Below, one piece after another: positions 1 through 63,708 of a stretch of DNA of 64,000 nt (positions are counted from its first letter, which is position 1; every line of letters begins with the position of its first letter). The notes beneath the pieces are model-generated. The model saw nothing but the letters and a program-made list of their open reading frames with translations. It had not been told where the DNA came from and did not search any database. Position numbers and translations under genes: made by a program. Source of the stretch: Nocardia iowensis (lineage in GTDB: Bacteria > Actinomycetota > Actinomycetes > Mycobacteriales > Mycobacteriaceae); NCBI RefSeq assembly GCF_019222765.1, contig NZ_CP078145.1, positions 5,890,001 through 5,954,000 of the forward strand. The letters are read 5' to 3'.

Positions 1-774
1 CTCTGGCGAATTCGGCTGCTCAGGAAGAACCTCCGGAACATTTCCGATGTCCGGGTCCGCCGCGGCCGCCACCACCCGTGCTTCGACATCGAGTAGTGCC
101 GTGTCCGCGATTCCCGCGTCGATGTCCGGCATTCCGGCGTCGATGTCCGACGAGCCCGTGCCCGATGGATCGGCGTCCGCCGCATTGGCTTCGGCATTGG
201 GCAGCGCCGCCGCGGTGAAGGTGACCCGGATCAGATGCTCCATCGCCGCCGCTACCGTGCGCAGCGGAGCCTCGGTGCGCCGCACCCTGGCCAGAATGGT
301 CGCGCCTTCGTACGCGGCGACGACCGTGGTGGCCAAGTCCCCCGCTTCCTGCGCGGACAGGCCAAGCTCGGCGAGCAGTCCGGCGAACGCCTGCTCCATC
401 GTGTCGAAGGCGGTGTCGCAGGCGGTGCGTACCGCCTCGACGTCGCTGCCGCCGTCCAGCGCGGGAGTGCCGATCGGGCAGCCGTCGACCCATTCCGAAC
501 CAGCCAGCTTGCCGATCATGAAGTCGAACAGGGTTGTCGTGGTGGCGAAAACATCGGTCGGCGCTTGCCGGATCATCCGCCCGGCCATTGTCCCCGTCCC
601 GGTGATGGCGGCGACTGCGATCTCCTCTTTGCCGCCCGGAAAGTGATGGTAGATAGAGCCATACGGCAATCCGGCCGCCTCGCTCAACGCCTTCAAACCG
701 AACCCGTGATACCCGTGTCGAGCGAGCAGCCCGCACGCGGCGACCTCGATCCGCCGCCTGGACTCCGAAACCAT
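1..774 (-). CDS. TetR/AcrR-family transcriptional regulator (3' end outside window)
   Basis: The frame starts at an ATG on the minus strand and stays open for 258 codons to the window edge, so the C-terminus is missing. The N-terminal 45 residues form a TetR DNA-binding domain with a helix-turn-helix reading LKALSEAAGLPYGSIYHHF. The body looks like the LmrA/YxaF-type ligand domain (WVDGCPIGTPAL). The last 50 or so visible residues are Ala/Asp-rich and low in complexity. It is divergent from mptB with at most 95 bp between them, so it may control that operon or itself. The ligand is unknown. M. tuberculosis, as I recall, has sufR at the equivalent position; this protein is not SufR. Confidence 0.85.
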   Translation of the reverse strand, partial: MVSESRRRIEVAACGLLARHGYHGFGLKALSEAAGLPYGSIYHHFPGGKEEIAVAAITGTGTMAGRMIRQAPTDVFATTTTLFDFMIGKLAGSEWVDGCPIGTPALDGGSDVEAVRTACDTAFDTMEQAFAGLLAELGLSAQEAGDLATTVVAAYEGATILARVRRTEAPLRTVAAAMEHLIRVTFTAAALPNAEANAADADPSGTGSSDIDAGMPDIDAGIADTALLDVEARVVAAAADPDIGNVPEVLPEQPNSPE

Positions 775-868
775 GTGTCTGATTGTGCCCCGCTCGGCGA
801 CGCTGCCGATCGGAACGAGCAGGGCTGGTACGTGGTCTGTAGCCGGACTCCGTCCGCCCGCGCCCCTT

Positions 869-2563
869 ATGCTTCGTCTCGTGGCGGTACTGGAGGGCGC
901 GCGGCGCAGAACACTGGCATTCGGGCGCCGGGCACTCGGGTTGGATGTGCCGGCCGCCGATCACACGATCGCGGTCCTGCACCAGGACGAATCCGAGGTA
1001 CCCGGCCTCGACCGCAAGGAACTGGTCCAGCTCGACCGGATCCGGCTGATGGGCGCGACCGGAACGGTGCTGATGGCGATCAGCGCACTTGGCATCGGCG
1101 CGCAGCCGGTACACCAGAACCCGACCTCGGGTGTCCGCGTCCTCGGCATCTTCGCCCGCGCCCACACCGGCTCACTGGCCATGTGTATGACCGGCACCGT
1201 CGTAGTGGTGCTGGCCTGGCTGCTGCTCGGCCGGTTCGCGGTCGGCGGCATCGGCGGCTCGCCGCTGCACCGCCTGACCCGCTCCCAGCTCGATCGCACC
1301 CTGCTGCTCTGGATCATTCCGCTCAGCATCGCGCCGCCGCTGTTCAGCAACGACGTGTATTCCTATCTGGCGCAAAGCGAAATCGCGGCACGCGGCATCG
1401 ACCCTTATCAAGAAGGACCGGTCGCCGGGCTCGGCATCGATAACGTACTGACCAACAATGTGCCGACCATCTGGCGCGACACTCCGGCACCGTACGGGCC
1501 GCTATTCCTCTGGATCGGCCGTGGGATCGCCGAAATAACGGGCGACAACATCATCGCGGGCGTGTGGGTTCATCGGATACTCGCATTGGCCGGTGTCGCG
1601 CTGATCGTCTGGGCGCTGCCCCGGCTCTCGGTGCGCTGCGGGGTGGCCCCGGTGAGCGCGCTGTGGCTGGGTGCCGCGAACCCGCTGGTGCTGTTCCACC
1701 TGGTCGGCGGTGTGCACAACGACGCGCTGATGCTCGGCCTGATGCTGGCGGGAATGGAATTCTGCCTGCGCGCCATCGAGGACATCCATCCGTTCGACGG
1801 GCGGGCCTACGCGTGGTTGATCGGCGGGGCGATCGTCGTCAGCATGTCGTCGGCGGTGAAACTCACCTCGATCGTCGCGCTCGGGTTCGTCGGCATGGCG
1901 CTGGCTCGGCGCTGGGGATTCAGTCTGCGCAATATCGCCGTCGCGGCCGCCATGCTCGGCGCGATCGCCATCGGCACAACACTTTTCATCGGTTCGGCGA
2001 GCGGGCTCGGCTTCGGCTGGATCTACACCCTCAATGTCGCCAACGCGGTGCGAAGCTGGATGTCGGTACCGACCGTGCTCGGGATCGTCACCGGGTTCGG
2101 TGGGGTGCTGCTCGGACTCGGCGACCACACCACCGCTTTGCTGAGCATCACCCGGCCGATCGCCGCGGTGATCGCCGGATTCCTCACCGTGCGCATGCTC
2201 GTCGCCACCGGCACCGGACGCCTGCATCCGGTCGGCGCGCTCGGCGTCGCGCTCGGCGCGATCGTGCTGCTGTTCCCGGTGGTCCAGCCCTGGTATCTGC
2301 TGTGGGCGATCGTGCCGCTGGCCGCGTGGGCGACCCGACCGGTGTTCCGCGTTCCCGCCGTGGCGTTCTCGGCTGTTGTCAGCGTCATTCTCATGCCACG
2401 CGGCGCCGATCTCGAGGTCTTCCAGATCGTCGGCGCCGCCATCGCCACCGTGATCGTGACGGTGCTGTTCATCGTCATCACCCGTAACAAACTGCCGTGG
2501 CGCGGCCAGCAGGGGGTGTCGGCTCCGTCACAAGTGCCCACCTCTTACGGTGTGACATCGTGA
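869..2563 (+). CDS. mptB: alpha-(1->6)-mannosyltransferase MptB-like, GT-C membrane enzyme
   Basis: A polytopic membrane protein of about 564 residues, close to mycobacterial MptB (Rv1459c) along its length as I remember it. Shared stretches include RLMGATGTVLMAI, LLLWIIPL, SNDVYSYLAQSEI, TPAPYGPLFLWIGRGI, NPLVLFHLVGGVHNDALM and VVQPWYLLWAIVPLAAWATRP. The Asp in NDVYSY lies in the first large outer loop, where GT-C enzymes carry their catalytic acid. The family extends the mannan core of lipomannan/lipoarabinomannan from polyprenyl-phosphate mannose. The frame is open back to 773, but that would overlap the divergent TetR start. ATG 869 leaves promoter space; GTG 944 aligns best with the mycobacterial N-terminus. 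Its stop overlaps a micro-ORF. Confidence 0.88.
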   Translation: MLRLVAVLEGARRRTLAFGRRALGLDVPAADHTIAVLHQDESEVPGLDRKELVQLDRIRLMGATGTVLMAISALGIGAQPVHQNPTSGVRVLGIFARAHTGSLAMCMTGTVVVVLAWLLLGRFAVGGIGGSPLHRLTRSQLDRTLLLWIIPLSIAPPLFSNDVYSYLAQSEIAARGIDPYQEGPVAGLGIDNVLTNNVPTIWRDTPAPYGPLFLWIGRGIAEITGDNIIAGVWVHRILALAGVALIVWALPRLSVRCGVAPVSALWLGAANPLVLFHLVGGVHNDALMLGLMLAGMEFCLRAIEDIHPFDGRAYAWLIGGAIVVSMSSAVKLTSIVALGFVGMALARRWGFSLRNIAVAAAMLGAIAIGTTLFIGSASGLGFGWIYTLNVANAVRSWMSVPTVLGIVTGFGGVLLGLGDHTTALLSITRPIAAVIAGFLTVRMLVATGTGRLHPVGALGVALGAIVLLFPVVQPWYLLWAIVPLAAWATRPVFRVPAVAFSAVVSVILMPRGADLEVFQIVGAAIATVIVTVLFIVITRNKLPWRGQQGVSAPSQVPTSYGVTS

Positions 2564-2649
2564 GCGAGCGGAGCGAGCGGAGCGAGCGAACCATAGGCGG
2601 AGCGCCCTCGGGCACGACGGAGCCGAGCGACGGCGAGGCGCTGTCGTGA
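2560..2649 (+). CDS. 29-residue Ser-Glu-Arg-repeat micro-ORF coupling mptB to the ABC ATPase
   Basis: A GTG at 2560 shares the sequence GTGA with the mptB stop. The frame runs 29 codons and ends in a TGA that overlaps the GTG start of the next gene, again as GTGA. The peptide begins MSERSERSERTIGG and is otherwise Gly/Ser/Thr/Glu-rich, with no known domain. The DNA contains repeated GAGCGAGCGG units and belongs to a dispersed element seen again at 39326-39385 and 63626-63708. The double 4-base overlap would let ribosomes pass from mptB to the transporter without a gap. Whether the peptide has any function beyond coupling is unknown. Confidence 0.5.
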   Translation: MSERSERSERTIGGAPSGTTEPSDGEALS

Positions 2650-3578
2650 CGACAACCGCCGGACCCGCCGTTCGCGTCGACGGTGTCGTCAAGCGCTACG
2701 GCGAGACCACGGCGGTCGATGGTCTGAGCTTCGATGTCGAACGGGCGCAGGTGCTCGCGCTGCTCGGTCCGAATGGGGCGGGCAAAACGACGACGGTCGA
2801 AATGTGTGAGGGGTTCGTGACGCCCGACGCGGGGTCGGTGCGGGTGCTCGGGCTCGATCCGATCGCTGATTCGGATCGGTTGCGGCCGCGCATCGGGGTC
2901 ATGTTGCAGGGTGGCGGCGCGTATCCCGGGGCCAAGGCCGGGGAAATGCTCGATCTGGTTGCCGCCTACTCCGCTGATCCGCTCGATCCGGCCTGGTTGT
3001 TGCGGACGCTCGGTTTGCAGGACAACCGTGGGACGCCCTACCGGCGGCTCTCCGGCGGGCAGCAGCAGCGGCTGGCGCTGGCGTGTGCGCTGGTCGGCAA
3101 GCCGGAAATCGTGTTCCTTGACGAACCGACCGCGGGGCTGGACGCGCAAGCCCGGCTCATCGTGTGGGAGTTGATCGACGCGTTGCGCCGCGACGGCGTG
3201 ACCGTTGTGCTCACCACGCACCTGATGGACGAGGCCGAGCAACTCGCGGACCAGTTGGTGATCATCGATCACGGCCGGATCGTCGCCTCCGGCACGCCCG
3301 CCGAGGTGACCGCGCACGGCGCCGCCGGGCAGCTACGTTTCTCCGCCCCACCGAAACTCGATCTGGACCTGCTGAAATCCGCGCTACCGGAAGGCTTCTC
3401 ACCACGCGAGACCACGCCGGGCACGTATCTGGTGGAGGGTGAGATCAATCCGCAGGTGCTCGCCACGGTGACCGCGTGGTGTGCGCGAGTCAACGTGCTT
3501 GCCACCGACATCCGGATCGATCAGCGCAGACTCGAAGACGTCTTCCTGGAACTCACCGGACGGGACCTACGCGGATGA
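2646..3578 (+). CDS. ABC transporter ATP-binding protein (DrrA-like)
   Basis: A 310-residue ABC ATPase with Walker A GPNGAGKTTT near residue 42, signature LSGGQQQRLALA, Walker B IVFLDEPTAGLD and the switch histidine in TTHLMDEAEQ. The C-terminal third resembles the extension of DrrA-type drug-export ATPases. It matches Rv1458c in length and position as I recall. Start is GTG 2646, overlapping the micro-ORF stop; the end overlaps the permease start by ATGA. It would drive the following permease as an exporter. The substrate is unknown; annotations as an antibiotic exporter in relatives are by similarity only. Confidence 0.93.
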   Translation: MTTTAGPAVRVDGVVKRYGETTAVDGLSFDVERAQVLALLGPNGAGKTTTVEMCEGFVTPDAGSVRVLGLDPIADSDRLRPRIGVMLQGGGAYPGAKAGEMLDLVAAYSADPLDPAWLLRTLGLQDNRGTPYRRLSGGQQQRLALACALVGKPEIVFLDEPTAGLDAQARLIVWELIDALRRDGVTVVLTTHLMDEAEQLADQLVIIDHGRIVASGTPAEVTAHGAAGQLRFSAPPKLDLDLLKSALPEGFSPRETTPGTYLVEGEINPQVLATVTAWCARVNVLATDIRIDQRRLEDVFLELTGRDLRG

Positions 3579-4366
3579 CCCAGCCCGACCTGACCGCCAA
3601 CCGCTTCACGCCGGGCACCTTCGCGCCCGATCCCCGGCCGAGTTCGCGCGTCGCGATGATGATCGCGCAAACCCGGCTCGAGCTGATCCTGTTGCTGCGC
3701 AACGGGGAACAGTTGCTGCTCACCATGTTCATTCCGATCACGCTGCTGGTCGGGTTGAGCCTGTTGCCGTTCGGCGACCTCGGCACCGACCGGGTGGACA
3801 AGATCGTGCCCGCGGTGATGATGGTGGCCGTCATGTCGACCGCGTTCACCGGGCAAGCCATCGCGGTCGGCTTCGACCGGCGCTACGGCGCGCTGAAACG
3901 GCTCGGCGCCACCGCATTGCCACGCTGGGGCATCATCGCGGGCAAGAGTGCGGCGGTGCTGATCGTGGTTGTGCTGCAAGCGGTTCTGCTCGGCGCCATC
4001 GGCTTCGCCCTCGGCTGGCGGCCCGAACCCGCCGGACTTGCCGTTGGCGCGGTCGTAATCGCGCTCGGCACGGCCACTTTCGCGGCCATGGGCCTGCTGC
4101 TCGGCGGCACCCTGAAGGCGGAAGTCGTGCTCGCTCTGGCGAACATCTTGTGGTTCGTCATGCTCGGCATCGCCAGCGTTGTGTTCGCCTCCGACGACCT
4201 GCCCACCATCGTGAATGTGCTTGCCCGCCTGGTCCCCTCGGGCGCACTGGCCGTCACTTTGGAGGACGCGATGCGCTCCAGCATCGACTGGTTCGGCATA
4301 GCCGTACTCGCCGCATGGGGCGTCGTCTCCGGCACCCTCGCGGCCCGCTACTTCCGCTTCCAGTAA
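3575..4366 (+). CDS. ABC-2 type transporter permease
   Basis: 263 residues with about six hydrophobic segments and a charged N-terminal tail of about 50 residues, typical of DrrB-like ABC-2 permeases. Features include LELILLLRNGEQLLLTM before the first membrane segment and the RRYGALKRLGAT motif in the following loop. The ATG overlaps the ATPase stop as ATGA, and this decided the start. It is the expected partner of the ATPase and the Rv1457c equivalent by position. The substrate is unknown. Confidence 0.9.
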   Translation: MTQPDLTANRFTPGTFAPDPRPSSRVAMMIAQTRLELILLLRNGEQLLLTMFIPITLLVGLSLLPFGDLGTDRVDKIVPAVMMVAVMSTAFTGQAIAVGFDRRYGALKRLGATALPRWGIIAGKSAAVLIVVVLQAVLLGAIGFALGWRPEPAGLAVGAVVIALGTATFAAMGLLLGGTLKAEVVLALANILWFVMLGIASVVFASDDLPTIVNVLARLVPSGALAVTLEDAMRSSIDWFGIAVLAAWGVVSGTLAARYFRFQ

Positions 4367-38980: not shown

Positions 38981-39329
38981 CGAGCACCTTCTCGAGGGTG
39001 GTTGAGTCGGGCACCGAATTCCACGGCGCGTCGGGATCGAGGCCGACATTGGGATGCCGGACGGTGATCTTGCCCGCGTGCAGCAGGTCCGACAGCAGGA
39101 TCGTGGCGATGCCGACCGGTATGCGCAGTTCGGCGGCGATCTCGACGACGGCGGTCGGGGCCCGGCACATGTCGAGGATCGCCACATGCTCGGACTGCAT
39201 GCCCTGCGTCGGCGCGCACTCGCTGACCACCAGGGTGACCAGGTCGAAGCTGTCCGAGTCCGGTTTGCTGCGTCCGCCGGTCAGTGTGTAGAGGCGGTCG
39301 GGGGTGTCGTCGCGGCCTGGCCTGTTCAC
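38961..39329 (-). CDS. cvnC: conservon DUF742 protein (CvnC-like)
   Basis: 122 residues from GTG 39329. The DUF742 pattern is clear: RLYTLTGGRSKPDSDSFDLVTLV, a winged-helix-like middle (LDMCRAPTAVVEIAAELRIPVGIATILLSDLLHAGKITV) and the ending STTLEKVLVGLRNL. In Streptomyces conservons CvnC interacts with the kinase and roadblock proteins. The start codon overlaps the stop of a 19-residue micro-ORF by GTGA. Confidence 0.9.
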   Translation of the reverse strand: MNRPGRDDTPDRLYTLTGGRSKPDSDSFDLVTLVVSECAPTQGMQSEHVAILDMCRAPTAVVEIAAELRIPVGIATILLSDLLHAGKITVRHPNVGLDPDAPWNSVPDSTTLEKVLVGLRNL

Positions 39330-39385
39330 GGCTGTGCCTCGCTGACGTTCGGCAAAGCCGTGGTTCGCTCGCTGCGCTCTGTCAC
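39326..39385 (-). CDS. 19-residue Ser-Glu-Arg micro-ORF coupling cvnB to cvnC
   Basis: GTG at 39385 shares GTGA with the cvnB stop, and its own TGA shares GTGA with the cvnC start, exactly the design of the micro-ORF at 2560-2649. The peptide reads MTERSERTTALPNVSEAQP. The DNA core GAGCGCAGCGAGCGAACCA is shared with the other copies. It fills what would otherwise be a 52-bp gap in the conservon. It probably serves ribosome hand-over; peptide function unknown. Confidence 0.5.
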   Translation of the reverse strand: MTERSERTTALPNVSEAQP

Positions 39386-39798
39386 GGCACGCTCGCTCCC
39401 CCGACGCGCGGGGTGGACGCGAGATGATGGCCCAGCTGTTCCACCAGTTCCCGCATGTTGTGGCCGACCAGGCCCGCGTCGGCGTCCTCGGCGGCGACAA
39501 CCGCGATGTGTGCCGCGAGACCTGCCTCGACGATGAACAGGATGCCGCCGTAGAACTCCGTCATCGACTGGCGCACACCGCCTCTACCGTCACCGAACTC
39601 GACGGAAGCACCGTGCGACAGGCTCTGGATGCCCGCGGCGATGGCGGCGAGCTGATCGGCCTTGTCCATGCCGAGTTCCGGTGTGTGGCAGATCTTGAGA
39701 CCGTCACCGGAGAGCAGCAGCGCGTGGCGGGTGCGTGGGGTACGGGCGAGCAGTTGCTCCAACAGCCAGCTCAGCTGCGACGGCACAGACGTGGTCAT
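39382..39798 (-). CDS. cvnB: conservon roadblock/LC7 protein (CvnB-like)
   Basis: 138 residues. Roadblock/LC7 fold: LSWLLEQLLARTPRTRHALLLSGDGLKICHTPEL, DQLAAIAAGIQSLSHGAS, and GGILFIVEAGLAAHIAVVAAEDADAGLVGHNM. In conservons this partner links the sensor kinase to the GTPase. The ATG overlaps the kinase stop by 4 bases, and the stop overlaps the micro-ORF start. Confidence 0.92.
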   Translation of the reverse strand: MTTSVPSQLSWLLEQLLARTPRTRHALLLSGDGLKICHTPELGMDKADQLAAIAAGIQSLSHGASVEFGDGRGGVRQSMTEFYGGILFIVEAGLAAHIAVVAAEDADAGLVGHNMRELVEQLGHHLASTPRVGGASVP

Positions 39799-61593: not shown

Positions 61594-62630
61594 GAGACGC
61601 GCTCCTTTCCACCCAACCCGGAACGCACATCCTGACCCATGTGCCGTCCCTCGACTCGAAGCCCTGCCATTTGCGGCCGAGGTTGCCGGATCAATTGATC
61701 CAGTGCGGCGGCAAGCTTTCCGGGATGATGCCGGTCCGTTCCCGCTTCGGCGACATCGGAGAAGGTTACCCGTGCCCGCAACTGTTCGGCAGCTCTCGCC
61801 ACATGTTCTCTTTCGCGACCCTCGGGCACCGACCCCGAATCGACCAATACTTCGTCGACCACGAATTCCGGTGCGTGCTGGGACAATACATGCAGGTGCC
61901 GTTCGGCGGAGAAACCCGCCGTTTCGCCGGGCTCGGCGGCGAGGTTCAGCACGAGGACTTTCCTGGCTCGGGTGTACACCAGCGCCTCTCGTAGTTCGGG
62001 GACGAGCACATGGGGGATGACGCTGGTGAACCAGGAACCTGGTCCGAGAACGACCACATCGGCGTGTTCGATGGCCGAGGTGGCTTCCGGACTGGCCGGC
62101 GGGTCGGACGGAATCAACCGCACCCGCCTGACCTTTCCCGGAGTGGTCGCGATGGCGACCTGGCCGCGAATACAGCGGCTGACCCGCGGATCTGCTTCCA
62201 GCCCAGCCACATCCGCTTCGATATCGAGCGCGATGGGGGACATCGGAAGCACCCGCCCGGTGATGCGCAACATCTTCGCGACCTCGTCGAGCGCGGCAAC
62301 GGGGTCACCGAGCACCTCGGCCAGTCCGGCCAGGATGAGGTTGCCGACCGAATGTCCGGCCAGCGCGCCGGTGCCGCCGAAGCGGTGCTGCACGGTCTTC
62401 GTCCACACTCCGTCGGCGTCCGCGGCCAGCGCGGCCAGCGCCATCCGTAGATCGCCGGGCGGCAGTACGCCGAGTTCGGCGCGTAGCCGACCGGACGAAC
62501 CGCCGTCGTCCGCGACGGTGACGACCGCGCAGATCTTTCTGGTCAGCCGCCGGACGGCGGTCAATGTCGCGTATAGGCCGTGCCCGCCACCCAGCGCGAC
62601 AATGCCGGGATCGGATTCCCAACCTGTCAT
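61584..62630 (-). CDS. yvcK: YvcK/CofD-like gluconeogenesis factor
   Basis: 348 residues. [19 protein letters not shown] near the N-terminus, [44 protein letters not shown] and [25 protein letters not shown] are family stretches. YvcK (CuvA in M. tuberculosis, Rv1422) binds UDP-sugars and helps coordinate cell-wall growth with carbon source. The ATG overlaps the rapZ stop by 4 bases. Confidence 0.95.
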
Positions 62631-63607
62631 TCGCGCCCCAGATCCCGGTGGACGACCCGCACCACATCGGCTGGTTCCTCGGTCACGTCGGTGACCTCGC
62701 TCATCAGTTCACCAAGAGCCTCGGCTATCGCCACGCTGCGGTGCCTGCCTCCGGTGCAGCCCACTGCCACGGTCATGTATCGCTTCCCCTCTTGGCGGTA
62801 ACCGTTCATCGTCAGTTCGACCAGGTGGTGGCAGGTACGCAGGTAATCGTCCGCGCCGGGGCGCGACAGCACGTACTCGCTCACCACTGATTCCTGACCA
62901 GTGTGTTCCCGCAATTCTGGAATCCAATGTGGATTAGGTAGAAAACGCACATCCAACACCATGTCGGCGTCCAGTGGAACCCCATGCTTGAAGCCGAAGG
63001 ATTGCACGGTCAGCTGCAGCGCGCTCGGCGCGCCGTCGCCGTACGCCTCCTCCAGCTTGCGGTGCAGCTGGTGGATGGAGAGCTCGGTGGTGTCGATGAC
63101 CAGATCGGCCGCCGCTTTCACGGCCGAGAGCCGGACCCGTTCAGCGGCGATGCCCGCCGAGAGGGTGCCGTCCTTGCTCTCGCTCTGCAGCGGATGGCGG
63201 CGCCGGGCGAAGCCGAAGCGCCGGATCAGCACGTCATCGGATGCCTCGAGAAACAGCACCCTGGTCTTGATGCCGAGTTTGCGCAGCTGTTCGGTGACCA
63301 CCGAGAGGTCACCGGTGAAGAACCTGCTGCGCACGTCCATCACCAGGGCAAGACTGCGGATCGGCGGGTCGGCCGAGGCGCCCAGTTCAACCATCCGGCC
63401 GATCAGCTCCGGCGGCAGGTTGTCCGTGACGTACCAGCCGAGGTCCTCCAGCACCCGGGCGGCGGTGCCGCGGCCCGCGCCGGATAGTCCGGTCACGATT
63501 ACAACCTCGACCTGCGGGTTCGCCGCTGAGACAGCGCTCGAGGGGCCGGCCCGCCCCTCGGTCTGTCGCGGATTGCCCGCAGTGTTGTTCGATTCGACGC
63601 GTGTCAT
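62627..63607 (-). CDS. rapZ: RapZ/YvcJ-family nucleotide-binding protein
   Basis: 326 residues. A disordered start of about 30 residues precedes the P-loop VTGLSGAGRGTAARVLEDLGWYVTDNLPPELI; Arg replaces the usual Lys of GAGKS, as I also recall for Rv1421. Then VMDVRSRFF, RRRHPL and the C-terminal GCTGGRHRSVAIAEAL. In E. coli RapZ controls glmS through small RNAs; in actinobacteria the role is unclear. First of the coupled rapZ-yvcK-whiA set. Confidence 0.95.
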   Translation of the reverse strand: MTRVESNNTAGNPRQTEGRAGPSSAVSAANPQVEVVIVTGLSGAGRGTAARVLEDLGWYVTDNLPPELIGRMVELGASADPPIRSLALVMDVRSRFFTGDLSVVTEQLRKLGIKTRVLFLEASDDVLIRRFGFARRRHPLQSESKDGTLSAGIAAERVRLSAVKAAADLVIDTTELSIHQLHRKLEEAYGDGAPSALQLTVQSFGFKHGVPLDADMVLDVRFLPNPHWIPELREHTGQESVVSEYVLSRPGADDYLRTCHHLVELTMNGYRQEGKRYMTVAVGCTGGRHRSVAIAEALGELMSEVTDVTEEPADVVRVVHRDLGRE

Positions 63608-63625: not shown

Positions 63626-63708
63626 CACGACTGCGCCGCGCTGGCGCTCGGCTCCGCCGTGTGCCGTGGCACGCTGTGTCGTTGGTTCACTCGCTGCGCT
63701 CGCTCTCT
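63626..63708 (-). repeat. decayed copy of the SER micro-ORF element upstream of rapZ
   Basis: On the minus strand it reads GAGCGAGCGCAGCGAG then TGAACCA, later CGGAGCCGAGCG, and ends GCGCAGTCGTG. The same blocks in the same order make up 2560-2649. Here the frame is broken by a TGA and there is no GTG at the front, so no micro-ORF is formed. It ends 18 bp before the rapZ ATG. Confidence 0.6.

Follow-up and report, generated by a model that had tools for sequence, protein, structure and literature searches.

Positions 2560 to 2649 of the window (the whole stretch of 64,000 nucleotides of the Nocardia iowensis contig NZ_CP078145.1 that was analysed) lie between mptB and the genes of an ABC exporter and very probably hold one copy of a family of short non-autonomous repeats that work like the mycobacterial interspersed repetitive units (MIRUs) and keep the downstream gene translated. 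The copy contains a small open reading frame (micro-ORF) that begins within a GTGA shared with the stop codon of mptB and ends within a second GTGA shared with the start codon of the next gene. The element is repeated in the genome, its insertion is exact when compared with empty sites in relatives, an open relay from one tetranucleotide to the next is retained, and bases of both ends covary as pairs. Actual translation of the micro-ORF with restart behind it is inferred, as is movement by any particular enzyme.

In the proposed mechanism, a unit of about 77 bp would insert at the tetranucleotide of a start codon (ATGA or GTGA), which would then flank it on either side. Ribosomes would reach the left copy of the tetranucleotide from the original upstream context, namely the stop of mptB here or a Shine-Dalgarno site elsewhere. 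They would translate about 17-30 codons, terminate at the right-hand TGA and reinitiate at the RTG of the same tetranucleotide with the aid of a GAGG carried by the element, and the gene behind the element would thereby remain translated after insertion. Both ends could fold as hairpins including the ATGA or GTGA, whose first base would pair with a matching inner base.

The initial annotation had described a 29-codon frame with a GTGA overlap at each end, and its coordinates were recovered exactly. It should be emphasized that this frame stays open upstream as far as a GTG at 2497; the GTG at 2560 is therefore singled out by the overlaps only. Counted from one ATGA or GTGA to the next, the copy measures 86 bp instead of the usual 77 bp through duplication of a 9-bp unit, GAGCGGAGC, by which the length stays at 2 modulo 3. 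The names proposed earlier for the surrounding genes also hold: the upstream one is identified as mptB by NF038066 and is followed by the genes of a DrrA-type ABC ATPase, under the cut-off of its model, and of a DrrB-family permease.

The core of the element occurs in the window at four sites with at most 2 mismatches, against 0.08 expected from shuffling. These sites correspond to the copy at 2560-2649, read in two registers of its duplicated 9-bp unit, and to two minus-strand copies at 39326-39385 and 63626-63705, in agreement with the earlier statement that the repeat is found elsewhere in the window. The whole genome (8.95 Mb, one contig) contains 11 exact core sites, and 55 sites at up to 2 mismatches versus 3 for the reversed pattern. 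A sequence-only model built from 25 copies, R1, detects at least 88 copies (E<1e-3), 45 of them on the plus strand, this number being a lower bound obtained with 150 of 16536 candidates scored. The 88 hits form 69 clusters, 17 of which contain 2-3 hits side by side in tandem. Measured copies are 48-98 bp long, mostly 77 and 80 bp, and have frames of 17-30 codons. In 17 of the 76 measured copies, the element overlaps the stop of an upstream gene; others are located at a plain start codon. The split into overlapping, tandem and other copies (17/21/38) follows a rough rule on the GC content of third codon positions (GC3), by which a few single copies are misfiled as tandem. Operon overlaps roughly make up only part of the targets. 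A distant blastn search with one 83-nt consensus gave no match for plasmid or phage copies, and Rfam gives nothing above a gathering score at 2300-2900.

Empty and filled sites in related genomes

Four sites were found at which the element is inserted at a start codon and relatives have an empty site. For the mptB-ABC junction, 118 genomes of the genus were searched with MptB and the junction was read in the best 30 loci, this genome included; the other junctions were likewise read in the best 30 loci of each search. The mptB-ABC junction is a bare GTGA overlap in 12 of the 30 loci and has an insert between tetranucleotides in 18, with 14 single units, 3 doubles and 1 triple, the last tetranucleotide of the triple being ATGA. 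At the gene of an MFS protein, 18/30 loci are empty, with a bare GTGA overlap, and 12/30 are filled. At an Mce-type gene, 28/30 are empty, with a bare ATGA overlap, and 2/30 are filled. The fourth site, a carboxyl-transferase gene (pccB-like; PF01039), is filled in this genome only, 28/30 loci being empty with a plain ATGA start and 1/30 being off register; these plain starts indicate that the A-type unit found there landed in a start codon. The empty and filled alleles of the four sites thus show that insertion is exact at the start-codon tetranucleotide, which is present on both sides afterwards. The number of units at one site varies from 0 to 3 between species. The insertion at the start of the carboxyl-transferase gene (L111, G000:C1:4437820) is confined to this genome among the 30 loci and is probably a recent event.

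In an IQ-TREE tree of the 3' part of mptB, at least four gains or losses of the filled state are distributed across well-supported branches. One filled genome (G071) adjoins empty genomes, and the genome studied here groups with G017 and G120 (support 81/75). Two empty genomes (G102 and G066, loci L189 and L190) pair with the filled G076 (support 98/92), which means that the unit was lost precisely or replaced by recombination with an empty allele, or that another insertion took place.

Reading by stop and restart reaches the ABC start in all 18 filled loci of the mptB site, tandem and frameshifted units included; in 4 of these 18 loci, the ABC start extrapolated from tblastn was moved by hand by 3 or 9 nt to the GTG of the junction. 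In G005 and G145 (L194, L195), one tandem unit has a +1 shift that is absorbed by fusion to the following unit, and the resulting 51-codon ORF still leads to the gene start. At the MFS gene, nine of the 12 filled loci were walked by codon (L333, L350 and L354 being left out) and all nine end in RTGA.

Retention of the reading frame

A relay was considered as kept when the length of the unit is 2 modulo 3 and no inner stop is present. An initial parse, in which four left ends were mis-set, gave 59 kept relays among 76 measurable copies of this genome. After the final parse of de-duplicated copies, the relay is kept in 62/73 copies of this genome, 41/47 copies of other species of the genus and 63/73 copies of the family f15, which is probably Pseudonocardiaceae (166/193 in total); 9, 0 and 3 copies, respectively, were parsed and could not be measured. 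The initial annotation had proposed to test whether copies between same-strand genes keep an open frame with GTGA or ATGA ends more often than expected by chance. The outcome is positive overall, mostly through the lengths 74, 77 and 80 bp; outside them, 15 of 39 copies are at 2 modulo 3, a proportion expected by chance.

Copies that depart from this rule were also counted. Seventeen have a length of 0 modulo 3, contain no stop and continue in frame into the following sequence, two of them being units of the mptB site. Nine are at 1 modulo 3, 5 of these with a stop, and three are at 2 modulo 3 with an early stop. Among the copies of this genome, L099, L108 and L143 (81-bp copies) as well as L119 and L125 are of the 0 modulo 3 type and fused in frame to the next gene; the N-terminal extensions generated by such fusions start with MSERSE or VSERQR in the 81-bp copies.

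The restart codon is preceded by a GAGG at 7-8 nt in 66/73 copies of this genome, 44/47 copies of the other species of the genus and 60/73 copies of f15. Any Shine-Dalgarno-like word is found before the right start in 68/73, 45/47 and 68/73 copies, respectively, versus 10-14% before background RTGA.

Several observations weigh against the interpretation of the element as a mobile repeat that keeps a relay. Frame retention is carried mostly by three inherited length classes (74, 77 and 80 bp), all of them 2 modulo 3, and the 39 copies of other lengths are distributed as 15, 15 and 9 at 2, 0 and 1 modulo 3, without excess over chance; in the other species of the genus, 0/5 of the lengths outside 77 and 80 are at 2 modulo 3. 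Independent length changes were for this reason dropped as a proof of frame selection. The frame entered by the 0 modulo 3 copies is cheap, frame 2 being open in 51/102 copies of length 77. As R1 was built from intact copies and 12 of its 88 hits have no tetranucleotide at one end, all these proportions lean towards intact copies. The RNA fold of the copy at 2560-2649 taken alone is not unusual (z -0.88, not above shuffles), and the structure is argued below from covariation only. These data do not distinguish a duplicated tetranucleotide from insertion next to a matching one, and no mobilising enzyme was found (PF01797 searched in 60 genomes).

Part of these observations would suit a drifting neutral repeat, the frame of which would be open through descent from one open master copy, with no selection for translation. 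The copies do have a common ancestry, the unusual lengths are not enriched for 2 modulo 3, and the element is T-poor, so that another frame is often open. However, the first 25 codons of the 77-bp copies contain an inner stop in 1/63 copies of the genus and 0/20 copies of f15, whereas 19-20 and 5 are given by a neutral simulation that presumes a star of copies around a consensus. This simulation used random substitution at the observed divergence (15 changes per copy in the genus and 24 in f15), and 0/400 runs were as low, whether sites were drawn evenly or by variability. The open relays of the 18 filled mptB sites and of the nine walked MFS sites, the retention of GAGG in the right place and the length classes of f15 (74 bp, n=24; 77 bp, n=20; 80 bp, n=17), all of them 2 modulo 3, also argue against neutrality, which appears highly unlikely. 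The earlier idea of a spreading element that brings its own start, frame and stop is thus supported by the exact insertion at start tetranucleotides, the relays at mptB and the stops below the neutral expectation.

Even less probable is that the micro-ORF encodes a functional Ser-Glu-Arg small protein that was spread as a gene. The SERSER start is recurrent in many copies and the frame is open. Over nine orthologous copies, the nonsynonymous rate of the element (0.112) is about half of the synonymous rate of mptB (0.204), taken as neutral; some constraint on the element, of the peptide or of the hairpin, therefore remains. The synonymous rate of the element is itself slowed (0.137 versus 0.204 in mptB). 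However, the ratio of nonsynonymous to synonymous changes (pN/pS) of the micro-ORF reaches 0.81 over these copies versus 0.07 for mptB, and the middle of the peptide is freely variable. Furthermore, the constraint on its first part is explained equally well by the hairpin, the peptide has no match in Pfam and the copies range from 17 to 30 codons. The data strongly indicate retention of the reading frame rather than of the peptide.

End hairpins and proposed movement of the element

Subterminal hairpins, as in REP-RAYT and IS200-IS605 elements, are present at both ends. The left 23 nt follow the pattern R T [GA] G N [GA] G C (GNA) G C [GA] G C [GA] A Y, with R standing for the initial base of the ATGA or GTGA, and the right end follows the pattern CAYGAC..GCC [GA] G C (GNNA) G C [GA] GGC..GTCRTG. 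With regard to a possible guide-type pairing between a cleavage tetranucleotide and the foot of the hairpin, the first base of the tetranucleotide pairs and covaries with an inner base at both ends: the left R-Y pair is Watson-Crick in 82/95 ends (shuffled mean 47.3) and the right one in 79/96 (shuffled mean 44.1), with 0/5000 shuffles as high in each case and a clustering at 85% identity. Neighbouring columns used as controls show no excess pairing except left column 24 in the genus (28 vs 23.9; 23/5000 shuffles). Among copies that are at least 80% alike, Y differs in 113/141 pairs when R differs and in 22/380 when R is the same, these pairs of copies not being independent. In units with unlike first bases at their two ends, pairing is local at both ends in 15/25 and not so in 10/25. 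Other pairs covary as well: among 181 ends, the left pair 9-15 is found 169 times as G-C, 7 times as A-T and 3 times mixed. In the right hairpin, y+4, y+5 and y+7 covary in f15. These positions and y+0 are unbiased; the counts from y-2 to y+3, except y+0, are biased by the offset, which was chosen by those very pairs. Since the shuffles leave relatedness in place, most weight is given to the local co-switching and to the Mce-type site. At this latter, which seems to derive from one insertion, G065 has A-T as its left R-Y pair; in the genome studied here, the first unit has G-C and the second A.C.

In the right stem, G.T mismatches are more frequent than A.C (at y+7 of this genome, for example, 20 vs 1). 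This suggests folding of the coding strand, with the reserve that one side is frequently constrained for other reasons. The left R-Y pair of copies with a GNA loop gives the opposite picture, with A-C in 13 and G-T in 3. In the insertions shared between genomes at mptB and at the MFS gene, the right stem often lacks pairs while the relay and GAGG persist; this suggests that the right stem could matter more for movement than for the host.

We think that the hairpins serve the spread of the element first and coupling secondarily. Gated coupling, in which the right hairpin of the mRNA would hide GAGG and the start until the micro-ORF is read and in which covariation would reflect a role on the host side, is a serious possibility, if short of an even one. 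GAGG and RTG are indeed enclosed by the right hairpin, the excess of G.T in its stem looks as if the coding strand folds (with one side sometimes fixed by the tetranucleotide or by the code), and the left pair of the Mce-type site goes from A-T to G-C in what is apparently one insertion. However, the A.C of the second tandem unit of this site and the pairs missing from the right stem of shared insertions that retain relay and GAGG argue against it. So do the better conservation of the left hairpin, which covers a start that must be used, and the loops, which fit the c(GNA)g / c(GNNA)g rule of DNA loop stability and not the GNRA loops of RNA.

A more tentative proposal, which we hold to be rather doubtful, is that the element picks its target by pairing. 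In this reading, the hairpin of each end, with its c(GNA)g or c(GNNA)g loop and tandem GA mismatches, would pair an inner base with the first base of the start-codon tetranucleotide. ATG starts would thereby receive A-type units and GTG starts G-type units, by way of a single-stranded DNA intermediate step and of an enzyme acting from outside the element. If true, this mobile element would be directed to start codons and would compensate for its insertion by carrying a ribosome relay of its own. The covariation of the end hairpins with the start codon makes this target choice directly testable.

REP/BIME elements, which are associated with RAYT (Y1) transposases of the IS200/IS605 family, are likewise short and present in many copies, with hairpin ends and a fixed tetranucleotide at their ends. 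This resemblance, together with insertion next to a fixed tetranucleotide whose first base pairs inside the element, would be consistent with mobilization by a Y1 transposase (IS200/IS605, RAYT-REP) of the same genomes. Such a mobiliser is nevertheless unlikely here: a search for the Y1 transposase domain PF01797 gave 0 matches in this one-contig genome and hits in 9/60 of the genomes searched, and the 16 loci surrounding these Y1 hits contain no R1 match. Furthermore, no convincing long or autonomous form with an inner gene was found in 1.22 Mb of fetched loci, the "long" candidates being tandem arrays. The Y1/RAYT candidate was rejected on the absence of PF01797 from this genome and of R1 matches beside Y1 hits elsewhere. 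The element also differs from REP/BIME by its position at start codons and by its coupled frame.

Relation to MIRUs, distribution and other features

It had been claimed that a spreading element keeping operon genes coupled would be a new kind of genetic part. This claim does not stand, as a passage of PMC12548453, citing Supply et al. 1997, already describes MIRUs as short repeats of many mycobacteria that are seemingly mobile, insert at start codons and have an inner ORF coupled at -4 nt, a coupling that, in the same passage, probably limits damage. Excerpts of other articles mention MIRU units of 77 and 53 bp in the senX3-regX3 interval (PMC4213456, PMC2453075) and units of 40-100 bp at 41 places of M. 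tuberculosis (PMC2734929). The resemblance covers most of these properties: both are short dispersed intergenic repeats present many times per genome (about 40-100 bp for MIRUs; at least 88 copies of 48-98 bp here), both form head-to-tail tandems of variable unit number (here 17/69 clusters and 0-3 units per site), both insert at start codons, here with empty sites in relatives, and the small ORF overlaps the neighbouring stop and start at -4 nt, here by GTGA or ATGA. The element relies on the stop-restart overlap that is usual between operon genes, as translational coupling by -4 (NTGA) overlaps does; the difference is that this overlap is doubled here by the inserted repeat, which adds one coupled step. 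In contrast to MIRUs, this family has an additional right-end hairpin and pairs that covary with ATGA or GTGA. The hosts also differ, MIRUs being mycobacterial while this family occurs in the genus of the window and in f15.

Within the genus, the element was detected in 54/59 sampled genomes, from none to at least 48 copies per genome, these counts being floors obtained with 46 candidates scored per genome. In f15, it was found in 38/61 genomes and 27/44 genera (E<=0.01), and 22 of 24 parsed loci have a length of 2 modulo 3, one of the 22 with an early stop. Longer tandem arrays also exist, with five units in G193 (L207/L237) and three in G003 (L390). An order-wide draw gave R1 matches in 101/298 genomes (E<=1e-4, strict filters). 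No genome of g72, a genus of the same family that is probably Mycobacterium, is among these 101, and 15 g72 genomes are among the unmatched ones listed. The element is therefore called MIRU-like rather than a MIRU.

The genus g72 has MIRU-type repeats of its own: 186/396 genomes contain a mycobacterial MIRU-type core at up to 3 mismatches, and the reversed pattern gives 0 in every row. In these repeats (L413-L434), up to 83 copies are seen in one genome. Neighbouring units are 50-53 bp apart, in tandem, in the 22 MIRU-type loci examined. When 44 units are read in the frame set by GAG CGN AGC, 18 reach NTGA and 3 reach TGATG within 60 nt, 8 reach NTGA at 61-120 nt and 15 reach neither. Both families have GAGCGNAGCGA in an identical codon phase, and what they share is limited to this 11-nt hairpin core in the comparison made with the MIRU-type repeats of g72. 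Some g72 rows with GAAC..AGTG (G651, G705, G721) show the same double change as the left pair 9-15 of the present element.

No description of such an element in other genera or of paired ends was found in the open-access literature searched. What looks new is the existence of such a family in this genus and in f15 with its many genera, and the covarying hairpins of both ends, in which an inner base is paired with the initial base of the ATGA or GTGA. The family provides a natural experiment outside the tuberculosis group, with empty and filled alleles of the same site in related species. Its presence could also account for Ser-Glu-Arg-rich micro-ORFs and N-terminal extensions of these genomes, at risk of being annotated by gene callers as small proteins or true N-termini.

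The features of the window are listed in Table 1.

Table 1. Coordinates of the mptB-ABC element, its neighbouring genes and the other copies in the window
Feature	Position	Strand	Evidence or remark
mptB, polyprenol-phosphomannose-dependent alpha-1,6-mannosyltransferase, upstream gene	773..2563	+	NF038066 8e-151
Left GTGA: micro-ORF start overlapping mptB stop	2560..2563	+	same tetranucleotide as at the empty sites of related genomes
Left-end hairpin, extended form with two GAGCGGAGC blocks	2560..2591	+	first G of GTGA pairs with C2591; pairing and covariation over copies
Additional 9-bp unit GAGCGGAGC	2566..2574	+	second occurrence at 2575-2583; 86 bp instead of 77
Putative micro-ORF, 29 codons, VSERSERSERTIGGAPSGTTEPSDGEALS*	2560..2649	+	relay kept at 18/18 filled sites of this junction
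Right-end hairpin CACGAC..GTCGTG around restart codon and GAGG	2613..2649	+	first base of GTGA pairs with C2615
GAGG, Shine-Dalgarno-like, 7 nt ahead of restart GTG	2635..2638	+	same place in 170/193 measured copies
Right GTGA: ABC ATPase start overlapping micro-ORF stop	2646..2649	+	
ABC transporter ATP-binding subunit, DrrA-type, downstream gene	2646..3578	+	TIGR01188 3.5e-68, below its cut-off; PF00005 1.2e-26
ABC efflux permease, DrrB family	3476..4366	+	TIGR00025, above its cut-off
Second copy, 56 bp, GTGA..GTGA	39326..39385	-	relay kept; between roadblock/LC7 gene (39382-39798) and DUF742 gene
Third copy, both terminal tetranucleotides decayed	63626..63705	-	18 nt upstream of the ATG of ORF 62627-63607

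The left GTGA of the second copy is the stop of the roadblock/LC7 gene (PF03259) and its right GTGA is the start of the DUF742 gene (PF05331). This gene order is that of a conservon operon. The ORF behind the third copy looks RapZ-like.

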